The translations under genes and the position numbers were made by a program. Shown piece by piece: positions 3-34,020 of a DNA stretch of 64,000 nt. The notes under the pieces are model-generated. The model did no database searches. It had not been told where the DNA came from and saw only the letters and a list, made by a program, of their open reading frames with translations. Origin of the DNA: Aestuariivivens insulae (lineage in GTDB: Bacteria > Bacteroidota > Bacteroidia > Flavobacteriales > Flavobacteriaceae); contig NZ_JAKMCS010000006.1 in the NCBI RefSeq assembly GCF_022662195.1, positions 151,421 through 215,420 on the forward strand, in the 5' to 3' direction. The first letter of the stretch is position 1. The number at the start of each line of letters is the position of its first letter.

Positions 3-2015
3 AATTCACCCATTACCCATTCGAATATTTCAAAAGAAGAACTAGAAAAACGGAATTTGGGACAAGACATCCCCATTTTGTTAAATTATTTACCCTCTGT
101 GGTGACGACCAGCGATGCAGGGGCAGGTATTGGTTATACAGGTATTCGTGTTCGCGGTACCGATGCTACCCGTGTTAATGTAACTATTAATGGTATTCCG
201 TATAATGATCCTGAAAGCCAAGGCACGTTTTGGGTGAATTTAGGCGATTTTGCCTCATCAACCCAGAGTTTGCAACTACAACGTGGTGTAGGAACATCTA
301 CTAATGGCTCCGGGGCATTTGGTGCTAGCTTGAACTTGTTAACCGATTCGTTCTCTGAAACAGCTTCCGCCGAAATATCGAATAGCTTTGGAAGTTATAA
401 TACACGCAAGCATACGGTGAAAATGAGTACAGGAGACATTTTGGGTGCTGAGCGTAGTCGAAGCATTGAGTTTTCTGGACGTTTTTCTAAAATTTATTCC
501 GATGGTTATGTAGATCGTGCTTTTACCGATTTAAAATCCTATTTCCTTCAAGGGGTATATAAAGACGATAACACCTTGATAAAGGCTTTGACCTTTGGAA
601 ATAAAGAATACACCTATCAATCTTGGTATGGTTTAACAGCAGAGCAACTAAAAGAAGACCGTCGCCAAAACCCATATACCTACGAAAATGAAACCGATAA
701 CTATTGGCAAGATCATTACCAATTGCATTGGAACGAACGCTTGGATAATCATTGGTCGACTAACTTAGGCTTAAACTATACAAAAGGGAAAGGCTATTTT
801 GAACAATATAAAGAGGGAGAATCGGCCGCAAGTTTTAATAATTTAATTGAAGAAGGATCGGATGTTATTGTGCGTCGTTGGTTAGACAACAATTTTTACG
901 TAGCTAATGCCAATGTGACCTATAAAAAAGATTACCTAGAAATAATTTCTGGGTTGTCTTACAGTAATTACATAGGAGATCATTTTGGAGAAGTGATTTG
1001 GGGAAGTGATTTGGCGCCAAATACATCCATTAGAGATCGTTATTATGATGGAGATGCCTCCAAAAATGACTTTAGTATATTTTCTAAGGCCACATTTAAG
1101 TTTGCAGAAAAGTTTACGGGCTATATCGATTTACAAGGACGCTTTGTAAGCTATAAAACCAATGGCATAAATTCAGATAGGGTACCTTTTGTGACCGATG
1201 CCAAATTTGATTTCTTCAATCCAAAAGTGGGGTTGACCTATAAGCATTGTGATGCCAATAGTTTTTATGTCTCTTATGCCAGGGCAAACCGAGAGCCTAA
1301 TCGCGACGATTTTAAAGCAGGGATAACAGAAAATGAAACCCTTAACGATATTGAGTTGGGATGGCGTTACCATACAGGTAAGGTGTCTGTAAACACCAAT
1401 GTGTACTATATGTTTTATCAAAACCAGTTAGTGTTAACGGGCGAATTGGATGATGTAGGTAGTCCCGTTAGAGTTAATGTAGATGAGAGTTATAGGTTGG
1501 GCGTAGAGGTCGACGCCAATATTAAGTTTTGTGATGTCTTTAATGCCTCTACTAATGTGGCTTTAAGTAGTAATAAGATAAAGGATTTTGGAGTTGCTGT
1601 TAATGGAGAGTATGTGAACTTAGGAGACACTAACATCTCATTTTCGCCAGAATTGATTATAGGCAATGCGCTTAATTTTAAACCAGTTGAAAATTTGCAA
1701 ATATCATTACTAAGTAAATATGTTGGCGAACAATATTTAGGAAACATTGATAATGATTTATCAAAGTTGGACAGTTACTTTGTAAATGACCTTAATATAG
1801 TTTATGAGATTAAACCAAATAGATTGTTCAAATCCATTGTGATTTCTGGATTGATAAATAATATATTCAATAAGGAATATGTATCTAATGGTTATTTCGG
1901 TTCATATGATTATGATGATCCTTCTAGTTCAACTGGAAAAACCACAGGCTATTATACGGGCTATTATCCACAGGCCACAACAAATTTTTTGGTTGGGGCG
2001 ACCTTGAAGTTTTAG
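3..2015 (+). CDS. TonB-dependent outer-membrane receptor (5' end outside window)
   Basis: This is the C-terminal part of a TonB-dependent receptor, an outer-membrane beta-barrel that imports a ligand such as a siderophore, vitamin or glycan using TonB energy. The reading frame is open from the first bases of the window, so the TTG at 57 is not the start and the true start lies upstream. The first visible part is the plug domain: the segment reading GQDIPILLNYLPSVV, then GIRVRGTDATRVNVTINGIP, then the QRGVGTSTNGSGAFG stretch. The rest is barrel strands with many aromatic residues, ending in a terminal Phe (GATLKF) as expected for Bam-dependent insertion. The ligand cannot be told from the sequence. 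A MITE-like repeat starts 12 bases after the stop. Confidence 0.93.
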   Translation, partial: NSPITHSNISKEELEKRNLGQDIPILLNYLPSVVTTSDAGAGIGYTGIRVRGTDATRVNVTINGIPYNDPESQGTFWVNLGDFASSTQSLQLQRGVGTSTNGSGAFGASLNLLTDSFSETASAEISNSFGSYNTRKHTVKMSTGDILGAERSRSIEFSGRFSKIYSDGYVDRAFTDLKSYFLQGVYKDDNTLIKALTFGNKEYTYQSWYGLTAEQLKEDRRQNPYTYENETDNYWQDHYQLHWNERLDNHWSTNLGLNYTKGKGYFEQYKEGESAASFNNLIEEGSDVIVRRWLDNNFYVANANVTYKKDYLEIISGLSYSNYIGDHFGEVIWGSDLAPNTSIRDRYYDGDASKNDFSIFSKATFKFAEKFTGYIDLQGRFVSYKTNGINSDRVPFVTDAKFDFFNPKVGLTYKHCDANSFYVSYARANREPNRDDFKAGITENETLNDIELGWRYHTGKVSVNTNVYYMFYQNQLVLTGELDDVGSPVRVNVDESYRLGVEVDANIKFCDVFNASTNVALSSNKIKDFGVAVNGEYVNLGDTNISFSPELIIGNALNFKPVENLQISLLSKYVGEQYLGNIDNDLSKLDSYFVNDLNIVYEIKPNRLFKSIVISGLINNIFNKEYVSNGYFGSYDYDDPSSSTGKTTGYYTGYYPQATTNFLVGATLKF

Positions 2016-6812: not shown

Positions 6813-6832
6813 CCCTGAGCACAGTCGAAGGG
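6813..6832. repeat. Short palindromic repeat of the CCCTGAG/TCGAAGGG class
   Basis: CCCTGAGCACAGTCGAAGGG, an imperfect palindrome of the same class as those at 2090, 15738, 20341 and 33943. It lies directly upstream of a terminator. Confidence 0.6.
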
Positions 6833-18590: not shown

Positions 18591-18662
18591 GTCATTCCGA
18601 GGAGTGAAACGACGTGGTAATCTTTTTAATTAGCAGATTGCTTCACTTTGTTCGCAATGACG
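18591..18662. repeat. Palindromic repeat in the leuS leader
   Basis: The left arm begins GTCATTCCGAGGAGTGAAAC and the right arm ends TTGTTCGCAATGAC; they pair imperfectly. It is the same class as the element that starts right after leuS (21734) and resembles the segment inside leuS at 19564. Confidence 0.7.
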
Positions 18663-18690: not shown

Positions 18691-21600
18691 ATGAGATACG
18701 ATTTCAATACAATCGAAAGAAAGTGGCAAGATTATTGGGCCAAAAACCAAACTTTTAAAGCCGAAAACCATAGCGATAAACCCAAATACTATGTGTTGGA
18801 TATGTTCCCTTACCCAAGTGGTGCCGGGCTACATGTTGGACATCCGTTAGGGTATATTGCCTCCGATATTTATGCGCGTTACAAACGTCATCAAGGCTTT
18901 AATGTGTTGCACCCACAGGGGTATGATAGTTTTGGTTTGCCAGCCGAACAGTATGCCATTCAAACGGGGCAGCATCCTGCAATTACAACCGAAGAGAATA
19001 TAAAAACCTACCGTCGTCAGTTAGACCAAATCGGGTTTTCGTTCGATTGGTCTCGTGAGGTACGTACGTCGGATCCTAAATATTATAAATGGACGCAGTG
19101 GATTTTTATCCAATTGTTCAATTCGTGGTATAATAATGATGCCAATAAAGCTGAAGACATTTCAGAATTAGTAAAAATATTTGAAGCGGAAGGCAATGCC
19201 AATGTCAACGCTGCTAGCGATGATGCTATTGAAATTTTTACTGCGGAAGATTGGAACAGTTTTTCTTCGGAAAAGCAACAAGAGATTTTATTACAATATA
19301 GATTAACCTATTTAGCTGAAACCGAAGTAAACTGGTGTCCGGCTTTGGGAACGGTTTTGGCCAATGACGAAATTGTTAATGGCGTATCGGAACGTGGTGG
19401 ACATCCCGTTATCCGAAAGAAAATGACCCAGTGGAGTATGCGTATTTCGGCTTATGCCGAACGTTTACTTCAAGGCCTGGAAACCATAGACTGGACCGAT
19501 TCGCTTAAGGAAAGTCAGCGCAATTGGATAGGTAAGTCGGTTGGAGCTTCGGTTATTTTTCCTGTCATTCCGACAGAGCGAAGCGGCGAGGAATCTCATG
19601 AAATATCTGTTTTTACTACACGCCCTGATACCATTTTCGGTGTGAGTTTTATGACCCTTGCACCAGAACACGAATTGGTATCACTAATAACCACACCTGA
19701 GCAAAAAGCCGAGGTCGACGCTTATGTCGAAGCCACAGCAAAACGTAGCGAACGCGATAGGATGGCCGATGTAAAAACCATTACAGGAGCGTTTACAGGG
19801 GCTTATGCCGAGCATCCATTTACCAAGGAACCCATTCCAATTTGGATAGGTGATTATGTGTTGGCAGGTTACGGTACCGGAGCAGTGATGTCTGTACCAT
19901 GTGGTGACCAACGCGATTACGATTTTGCGAAGCATTTTAATATTCCCATTCCTAATATTTTTGAAGGTGTTGATATTTCTGAAGAAGCCTTTGCAGATAA
20001 GGACAATACCGTAATTGCCAATAGCGATTTTCTTAATGGCCTAAACTATAAAAAGGCTACCAAAAAGATAATTGAGGAACTGGAAAAGTTGGGTCTAGGT
20101 GAAGGGAAGACCAATTACAGGTTACGCGATGCGGTGTTTAGTCGTCAGCGTTATTGGGGCGAACCATTTCCGGTATATTATGTCAATGGCATGCCGCAAA
20201 TGATAGATGCACAATATTTACCTATTACCTTGCCCGAAGTTGAAAAGTATCTCCCTACCGAAACGGGCGAACCACCACTGGGCAATGCCACGGTTTGGGC
20301 TTGGGATACCAAAAACAATAAAGTAGTATCCAACGACTTGGTGACTGAGGCTCCCGAAGTCACCGGTGAGAATCAAGTCGCTTCGAGTACCTCAGCGACC
20401 ACAGATAATGGCATCTACCCATTAGAGTTAAACACTATGCCAGGATGGGCGGGAAGCTCGCAATATTTTAATCGTTATATGGATCCGCATAATGAGGATG
20501 AAATCTTCTCGCAAGAGGCCATTAACTATTGGCAGCAGGTGGACTTGTACATAGGCGGTAGCGAGCATGCCACTGGGCATTTGTTGTATTCTAGATTCTG
20601 GCAAAAATTTATGTTCGATAAAGGTTTGGTGCCTTACGACGAGTTCGCCAAAAAACTGATTAATCAAGGGATGATTTTGGGGACGAGTGCGTTTGTAAGA
20701 AGATTAGATGGTGTTTATTTTGAAGATGATAAAGGAGTAATGAAAGGAGCATATAATGTTAGTTCAAATATTTATTTATCAGAAGGGAGAGTTTCAAATC
20801 AAGCATTTTTGAAAGAATTGCTTCTAAATCTAAAAGAAGAAAATCCAAAAATCACTAATGAAAAGGTTTTCGATAATTTAGATAAGAATTATAAAATATG
20901 TTTGCGAAAAGGAATTCATGCCGATGTGTCTTTTGTAAACGCTTCAGATGAATTGGATATTGAAGCTTTTAAAAACTGGCAACCAGAGTTTAAGGATGCA
21001 GAGTTTATCTGTGAAGAAGATGGAACATTTAAAGTAAGTCGCGAAGTCGAAAAAATGTCCAAATCCAAATACAACGTCGTCAATCCGGATAATATCTGCG
21101 AGCAATATGGTGCCGACAGTTTACGTTTGTATGAAATGTTCTTAGGGCCATTAGAGCAATACAAACCTTGGAACACAGCGGGAATCACAGGTGTACACTC
21201 CTTCCTTAAGAAGTTATGGAAGCTGTATAACGACGATAATGGTCTTAAAGTAAACGATGAAGAGCCGTCAAAGGATAGTTTAAAAACTTTGCATAAAACC
21301 ATTAAAAAGGTTCAGGAAGATATCGAGAATTTTTCGTTCAATACGTCGGTATCCACTTTTATGATTGCCGTAAATGAGCTAACCGCTCAAAAGTGTATTT
21401 CTAAAGAGATTTTAGAACCCCTTTTAATTTTAATTTCACCCTATGCACCTCACATTGCCGAGGAATTATGGAGTCAGTTAGGACATCAAGAGTCTATTGC
21501 AATGGCGCCATTTCCCCAGTTTGATGAAAAGCATTTGGTAGAAAGCAGCAAGAATTACCCCATTTCATTTAACGGAAAAATGCGTTTTACTATGGAATTG

Positions 21601-21732
21601 CCGTTAGATATGGGTAAAGACGATATTGAAAAAGCAGTGTTGGCAAACGAAAAGACCCAAGAACAGTTACAAGGGCGTACCCCTAAAAAGGTGATTGTGG
21701 TTCCTGGGAAGATTGTGAATATAGTAGGTTAA
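18691..21732 (+). CDS. leuS: Leucyl-tRNA synthetase with in-frame repeat insertions
   Basis: Charges tRNA-Leu. At 1013 residues it is long for the family. The class I signatures are HVGH (48-51) and KMSKS (788-792). The editing (CP1) domain has FTTRPDTIFGV and GTGAVMSVPCGDQRDYDF. The Bacteroidota-type insert before KMSKS (about 670-780) is present. Two stretches look like palindromic repeat DNA translated in frame: residues 292-303 (VIPTERSGEESH) in an editing-domain strand-loop, and residues 551-570 between WAWDTKNNKVVSNDL and YPLELNTMPGWAGSS. Repeats of related classes flank the gene on both sides. The active-site motifs are intact, so the enzyme should be functional. Confidence 0.96.
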   Translation: MRYDFNTIERKWQDYWAKNQTFKAENHSDKPKYYVLDMFPYPSGAGLHVGHPLGYIASDIYARYKRHQGFNVLHPQGYDSFGLPAEQYAIQTGQHPAITTEENIKTYRRQLDQIGFSFDWSREVRTSDPKYYKWTQWIFIQLFNSWYNNDANKAEDISELVKIFEAEGNANVNAASDDAIEIFTAEDWNSFSSEKQQEILLQYRLTYLAETEVNWCPALGTVLANDEIVNGVSERGGHPVIRKKMTQWSMRISAYAERLLQGLETIDWTDSLKESQRNWIGKSVGASVIFPVIPTERSGEESHEISVFTTRPDTIFGVSFMTLAPEHELVSLITTPEQKAEVDAYVEATAKRSERDRMADVKTITGAFTGAYAEHPFTKEPIPIWIGDYVLAGYGTGAVMSVPCGDQRDYDFAKHFNIPIPNIFEGVDISEEAFADKDNTVIANSDFLNGLNYKKATKKIIEELEKLGLGEGKTNYRLRDAVFSRQRYWGEPFPVYYVNGMPQMIDAQYLPITLPEVEKYLPTETGEPPLGNATVWAWDTKNNKVVSNDLVTEAPEVTGENQVASSTSATTDNGIYPLELNTMPGWAGSSQYFNRYMDPHNEDEIFSQEAINYWQQVDLYIGGSEHATGHLLYSRFWQKFMFDKGLVPYDEFAKKLINQGMILGTSAFVRRLDGVYFEDDKGVMKGAYNVSSNIYLSEGRVSNQAFLKELLLNLKEENPKITNEKVFDNLDKNYKICLRKGIHADVSFVNASDELDIEAFKNWQPEFKDAEFICEEDGTFKVSREVEKMSKSKYNVVNPDNICEQYGADSLRLYEMFLGPLEQYKPWNTAGITGVHSFLKKLWKLYNDDNGLKVNDEEPSKDSLKTLHKTIKKVQEDIENFSFNTSVSTFMIAVNELTAQKCISKEILEPLLILISPYAPHIAEELWSQLGHQESIAMAPFPQFDEKHLVESSKNYPISFNGKMRFTMELPLDMGKDDIEKAVLANEKTQEQLQGRTPKKVIVVPGKIVNIVG
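19564..19599 (+). repeat. Interspersed repeat segment inside leuS
   Basis: The 36 bases start GTCATTCCGACAGAGCGAAG and end AGGAATCTCAT. They read like the intergenic repeat class at 18591 and 21734 (GTCATT-C-GAGG...AATCT). They encode residues 292-303 in frame. Confidence 0.6.
20341..20400 (+). repeat. Double-hairpin palindromic repeat inside leuS
   Basis: Two adjacent hairpins, GTGAC...GTCAC (20341-20363) and GTCGCT...AGCGAC (20377-20399), have loops that are near complements (TGAGGCTCCCGAA against TTCGAGTACCTCA). This is the layout of the intergenic element at 33943-34020. It is translated in frame as residues 551-570. Confidence 0.7.
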
Positions 21733-33942: not shown

Positions 33943-34020
33943 GGTGCCTGAGGTTCTCGAAGGCACCTTACGATATTATAGGTATTTTTGATTTTGGTGC
34001 CTTCGAGAACCTCAGGCACC
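33943..34020. repeat. Large palindrome with 25-bp perfect arms
   Basis: 33943-33967 and 33996-34020 are exact reverse complements around a 28-base spacer. Each arm is itself a hairpin (GGTGCC...GGCACC) with the loop core TGAGGTTCTCGAA or TTCGAGAACCTCA. It is the clean version of the element translated inside leuS at 20341-20400. It ends 9 bases from the stop of the leftward dehydrogenase gene. The rest of the gap (33774-33942) shows no supported gene. Confidence 0.8.

Follow-up and report, generated by a model that had tools for sequence, protein, structure and literature searches.

How a double hairpin came to be translated within leuS, an essential gene, of this marine bacterium is the question that this locus raises. 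An earlier note on the DNA had proposed that an interspersed palindromic repeat inserted in frame into the gene for leucyl-tRNA synthetase (LeuRS). We followed up this proposal by computational analysis of the window (the whole stretch of 64,000 nucleotides), the genome from which it comes, and the LeuRS proteins of relatives. Coordinates are collected in Table 1.

Table 1. Window coordinates of leuS and of the repeat elements discussed in the text.
Feature	Position	Strand	Description
5-base-loop sister core in TonB-dependent receptor ORF	448-463	+	translated frame AERSRS
CGTC-type REP	18635-18661	-	~30 bp 5' of the leuS start codon; 0 in 100 shuffles
leuS, leucyl-tRNA synthetase, host gene	18691-21732	+	ORF of 1013 aa; NCBIfam leuS_bact (TIGR00396), E 2.6e-270
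REP-like stretch at site A of leuS, also translated	19564-19596	+	residues 292-302; TGTC-headed type
Hairpin 1	20340-20364	+	GGTGACT-GAGGCTCCCGA-AGTCACC; core CTGAGGCTCCCGAAG at 20345-20359, 1 mismatch; 7-bp outer arms
Putative in-frame insert, LeuRS site B	20341-20403	+	63 nt, 21 codons, VTEAPEVTGENQVASSTSATT; from comparison with 101 other scored LeuRS
Hairpin 2	20376-20400	-	AGTCGCT-TCGAGTACCTC-AGCGACC; core CTGAGGTACTCGAAG at 20381-20395, exact, - strand
Intergenic double hairpin, same design as that in leuS	33943-34020	.	cores at 33948-33962 (+) and 34001-34015 (-)

Residues 551 to 570 of LeuRS are the translated double hairpin, codon for codon as the earlier note had claimed. The two hairpins face opposite ways with a short spacer between them, which confirms the double-hairpin observation. 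Their outer arms are 6 to 7 bp long around the GAG/CGA positions, and the stem count varies with the reading of these positions. Judged from the loops of relatives, about 2 native residues would have been lost at site B, giving a net gain of 19 amino acids over a 12-residue loop. DNA folding returned both hairpins (z = -1.94; 9 of 200 shuffles as good), and RNA folding paired the two repeat units with each other (z = -2.44; 7 of 200 shuffles as good); these scores are real, not extreme. A repeat scan at default settings reported zero inverted repeats within leuS.

The gene carries a second translated REP-like stretch at site A. A genome search with the pattern used, allowing 3 mismatches, gave zero further copies of this element. 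The editing domain (PF13603) was matched at residues 277 to 465, and loop A lies at its start. An AlphaFold model of LeuRS was poor (mean pLDDT, 64.6; pTM, 0.45), and we used it solely for the pLDDT of residues 554 to 570, which was <50, and for the placement of site A, which in this poor model falls between two strands.

The repeat is interspersed, as the earlier note held. Its 4-base-loop core, CTGAGNNNNTCGAAG, had 62 exact copies in the 4.23-Mb genome (reversed-pattern control, 0), and a 5-base-loop sister core, CTGAGNNNNNTCGAAG, had 59 (control, 0). A CGTC-type REP gave 16 genome matches within 2 mismatches (control, 0); eight of these were packed into ~1 kb at G000:C33:176063-177073. Within the window, where 2 mismatches were allowed, there were 11 core matches compared with 6.35 expected, and 3 of 100 shuffles reached 11; this window-only excess is weak, and the whole-genome count is decisive. 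The likeness to the intergenic palindrome of the window, another claim of the earlier note, held as well, with the core present there twice in opposite orientations. Elsewhere in the window, a 5-loop core (2077-2092) and an opposed 4-loop core (2179-2193) are separated by ~90 bp, and another 5-loop core lies at 6815-6830.

Copies of the repeat differ in ways that keep the hairpin. The first outer arm pair was a standard pair in 30 of 31, 27 of 31, and 59 of 59 copies of three subfamilies (expected, 17.9, 14.0, and 35.6), with 4 to 5 pair types in use; arm positions further from the core paired less consistently. Because the arm pairs beside the core covary, the hairpin is preserved despite changes of letter. 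An inverted partner (≤2 mismatches) lay within 110 nt of 13 of the 62 cores, compared with 31 of 600 random positions. Of these partners, 9 stood 36 to 53 nt away, every one of them in the CTGAGG subfamily, which includes the leuS dimer. Same-direction arrays at 77 to 78 nt accounted for 8 of the 62 cores, and 41 were neither arrayed nor inverted-partnered. Among CTGAGG copies, 1 of 31 had the motif [TC]GT[CT] within the 10 nt preceding the core; in the two sister subfamilies, the motif lay near the core in 19 of 31 and 16 of 59.

We placed 135 cores relative to ORFs (all 62 4-loop cores, all 59 5-loop cores, and 14 of the 16 CGTC-type matches). Nine lay deep in long ORFs, one more lay at the joint of fused genes, and 12 others were either close to the beginning of an ORF of ≥100 aa or within a short ORF of at least that length. 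Long ORFs thus hold few members of the family, the usual situation for REPs. Translated copies use several frames (LSVVEG, AERSRS, SLREPQ, and ASSTSA), which argues that the propagated unit is DNA, not peptide. The fused genes form one 422-aa ORF (L009:581-1849, G000 contig C11) that joins a GIY-YIG protein to a GYDIA-family GHMP kinase, with a TGAG hairpin at the joint.

The genome listing also yielded copies inside ORFs other than leuS, which the earlier note had suggested looking for. purL carries the dimer (TEALEVPEGAGNMEASRTSA) at one loop; a second loop holds a CGTC REP together with a single hairpin. At the first of these loops, 19 of 27 other full-length PurL rows were short, and 8 of 27 (L168 to L175) had extra residues of other sequence; the dimer insert itself was found in 0 of the 27, and among the 30 rows, L195 and L196 were unaligned there. 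In an M3 oligopeptidase, VLSVVEGA stands shortly before the conserved LLTFNEVTTLFHEFGH, and these 8 extra residues were absent from 29 of 29 other rows. The corresponding DNA has 24 bases more than that of relatives, with no target duplication of >2 bases. In-frame insertions absent from orthologues were therefore found in three genes: leuS, purL, and the M3 oligopeptidase gene. A long ORF with a GatB-AspS linker (L227) contains a translated core. IcmF (L210) was considered as a clean insertion and rejected; a translated CGTC core is present, but the loop is too variable to call.

We compared the two LeuRS loops among relatives, defining loop A as residues 291 to 306 (short if ≤11 aa) and loop B as residues 547 to 577 (short if ≤12 aa). 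The set comprised 110 sequences, namely, the best 30 loci of 60 genomes (all 60 of which matched, this genome included) and the best 80 of 593 matches from named genome records; removal of 3 duplicates left 107. Within this sample of best matches, loop B was scored in 102 of the 107, as 5 rows did not fit the loop pattern, and it was short in 87 and long in 15. Loop A was short in 61 of 107 and long in 46. Relatives from other genera have a short loop B (e.g., VSNDLIDNKTVF; 12 aa compared with 31 here), so the gap that the earlier note expected is present in them. The three same-genus genomes that were searched, on the other hand, have longer B loops with sequence unlike this one, and because these loops are also long, the nearest sisters offer no empty site B. 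Separately, the LeuRS of one same-genus genome (G003) and that of Aestuariivivens sediminicola (L034 and L065) are identical over the last 700 residues, loop stretches excluded, which probably makes Aestuariivivens the genus of the window.

The 15 long B loops differ from one another in sequence, and many are other REP types. Long loops contained TGTC/CGTC REPs, VTLSAVEGS-type hairpins, and GATGCTGAA hairpins, and in another species (L097), loop A holds the dimer type found here at loop B. MLKQVQHD-type hairpins are present in leuS of relatives and had 0 copies in this genome within 2 mismatches. Repeat patterns recognized 29 of the 46 long A loops and 11 of the 15 long B loops; of the unmatched ones (17 and 4), some are palindromic by eye and some are not. 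The motif [TC]GTC was present at site A in 19 of 46 long loops compared with 2 of 61 short ones (Fisher, 8e-7), suggesting that the loop A element brings its own head. On a quick LeuRS tree built without the loop residues, in which 31 of 104 inner branches were weakly supported, at least 34 state changes were needed for loop A and at least 11 for loop B, counts that do not separate gain from loss.

A scan for a generic REP core in 105 leuS genes (of the 107; two long-branch rows were also left out) found 28 places, 24 of them at loops A and B, against 5 in a codon-shuffled control. Loop A accounted for 17 of them, spread over 14 genes, and loop B for 7 in 6 genes; the other 4 lay outside both loops. 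An earlier scan, with two added patterns taken from inserts at these loops themselves, assigned 36 of its 40 cores to the two loops (control, 3). Pattern-free hairpins with a stem of ≥8 numbered 68, of which loop A held 8 and loop B held 6, the remaining 54 being elsewhere (shuffled control, 90). They are enriched for the length of the A and B loops, with no hotspot of hairpins at large. The recurrent LeuRS hotspot for REP cores is the notable part of the finding, and the LeuRS loop seems to be a spot at which landing repeats are tolerated; a novel type of system is not indicated. Two Allomuricauda species (L110 and L125) have a REP core at a third leuS place, near residue 851.

The explanation that we favor, and consider probable, is that the 63 bases are a REPIN-like nonautonomous palindromic repeat unit that entered leuS as DNA and is tolerated in a loop. 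In such a unit, a short spacer would separate two REP-type hairpins that point in opposite directions. The hairpins could form in single-stranded DNA, and movement may have passed through such a hairpin intermediate. The insert would have been kept because it comprises whole codons, has no stop, and sits in a loop, and it would persist as ~20 extra, probably inert residues that we take to be translated and neutral; copies that broke genes were presumably lost. Loops A and B are likely exposed and permissive, and in the Flavobacteriaceae different REP families recur at both. The short loops in other genera, the interspersed copies, and the copies in other ORFs support the in-frame insertion reading of the earlier note. 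Several points count against our explanation. Movement was not observed, and the Y1_Tnp search yielded no mobilizer. The structure model is poor. Some long loops match no repeat pattern (17 of 46 at A and 4 of 15 at B), and the hotspot seen for REP cores is less evident for pattern-free hairpins. Finally, the motif G[IV][YF] ends loop B in all 15 carriers but in 0 of 87 noncarriers, which would not be expected from simple independent insertion.

This motif suggests shared ancestry, exchange, or structural need, and it favors the idea that insert-bearing leuS alleles spread between species by recombination, in which case the patchwork on the tree would reflect exchange plus element replacement with few true insertions. 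The lack of a second copy of the site A element in this genome and the differing B sequences of same-genus genomes also fit that idea. We nevertheless consider it unlikely. In a test of local similarity between carriers along leuS, one sliding segment just upstream of B (start, 520) had the second-highest carrier-pair similarity, at 0.49 (mean, 0.03; standard deviation, 0.26), but the remaining segments around A and B showed no such excess. Moreover, carriers adjoin noncarriers in well-supported pairs, such as L073 and L102, which differ in loop A. Lateral transfer of insert-bearing leuS segments was not adopted, the similarity test being mostly negative with one raised segment upstream of B.

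REP cores cluster at two loops of this essential gene, and loop A lies at the start of the editing domain. These features could instead indicate selection, with REPs domesticated such that the peptide tunes LeuRS or an mRNA hairpin regulates leuS. We regard this as very improbable, since the inserts are unlike in sequence and occur in several frames and lengths, the loops are short in most relatives compared, and inserts occur in unrelated proteins too. That an ordinary length-variable loop is palindromic by chance, with no mobile element, might draw on the moderate fold z-scores, the long loops of relatives that match no repeat, and the finding that hairpins at large are no rarer elsewhere in leuS than shuffles predict, but it has almost nothing left to it, being already contradicted by the exact copies across the genome (with controls of zero), the same design in purL and at 33943, and the M3 oligopeptidase insertion.

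Returning to a tolerated, REPIN-like unit as the preferred explanation, we also considered a stronger version, in which leuS of the Flavobacteriaceae is a landing pad where different REP families repeatedly insert and replace one another like cassettes at two loops, at a rate well above that in other genes. We offer this version tentatively and somewhat doubt it; under it, the protein would perhaps be permissive, and so would the DNA, with a TGTC-like target at loop A.

Our search for a transposase covered the Y1_Tnp family and found no mobilizer for the leuS repeat. This genome has one Y1_Tnp frame, which is fused to HemF, and a remnant interrupted by four stops. The fused frame scored 58.6 bits against the REP_Tyr_transpos cutoff of 80. 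The palindromes flanking it belong to another family, and the upstream one contains a 5-loop core; no cores of the leuS subfamily were seen beside the frame. In this fusion, a single ORF (L062:1477-3000, G000 contig C28) encodes both an IS200/RAYT-like transposase and HemF, the oxygen-dependent coproporphyrinogen oxidase, with a palindrome-encoded linker (DLQGFENIVG...LQGLKDLVG) between them. Across genomes, the same search gave no Y1_Tnp match in G001 (18 cores) or G008 (20 cores), three in G040 (54 cores), and fourteen in G009 (11 cores). A link between this transposase family and the repeat was not accepted. The 54 exact 4-loop cores of G040, which belongs to another family of the same order, are near the count in this genome.

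The leuS repeats bear on the way in which REPs lacking a known transposase move, if they still do. The leuS genes of more than 10 named genera (among the best 80 of 593) have alignable insertions of several REP types, and they offer comparable junctions and turnover, so that target preference and a mobilizer become testable. The repeats also show that short hairpins add residues to core enzymes (LeuRS, PurL, and an oligopeptidase) outside Rickettsia.

Several known systems resemble the one described here. CGTC and GTAG REPs, including copies inside ORFs, have been described (Di Nocera 2013, PMC3733652), and the part of that paper available to us reports three other species with translated REPs inside tRNA synthetases, the occurrence of CGTC REPs in Bacteroidetes (with G. 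forsetii named as CGTC positive), and the identity of the Rickettsia elements RPE-4 and RPE-6 as CGTC REPs; the same part reports no transposase link for CGTC REPs. Since RPE-4 and RPE-6 are CGTC REPs, and CGTC REPs are known in this phylum, translated REPs are less unexpected here than the earlier note held when it called the event unfamiliar in Flavobacteriaceae. CGTC-tagged REPs (stem, 8 to 9 bp; loop, 4 to 5 bases) share with the leuS repeats short hairpins with 4- to 5-base loops, frequent opposed pairs, some translated copies, and occurrence in Bacteroidetes. They differ in their unpaired CGTC/TGTC/CCTC head, since the leuS dimer subfamily lacks a CGTC/TGTC head in all but 1 of 31 copies.

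REPINs, as presented in the portion of Bertels and Rainey (2011, PMC3116915) available to us, likewise consist of two inverted REPs with a short spacer and are likely a mobile unit; the leuS dimer has this arrangement. REPINs are extragenic and tied to RAYT genes, whereas the repeat described here has no clear RAYT link in the Y1_Tnp search. The Rickettsia palindromic elements, to which the earlier note had likened the leuS repeat, are comparable in behavior, as both insert palindromic DNA in frame into unrelated genes (PMC10969869); the leuS subfamily is mostly without a CGTC-like head, and the inserts here are 24 to 63 nt compared with ~150 bp, the size given in the part of that source at hand. 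In Xanthomonas recB, as here, different REPs occur near one site, in two species (PMC3733652), whereas leuS has two sites with recognized REP types in more than 10 named genera (among the best 80 of 593). In the literature searched, some of it available only in part, we found neither REPs described within flavobacterial LeuRS nor any mention of a LeuRS hotspot. Relative to that literature, translated REPs are already known, and the family-wide double hotspot in LeuRS was not found there.
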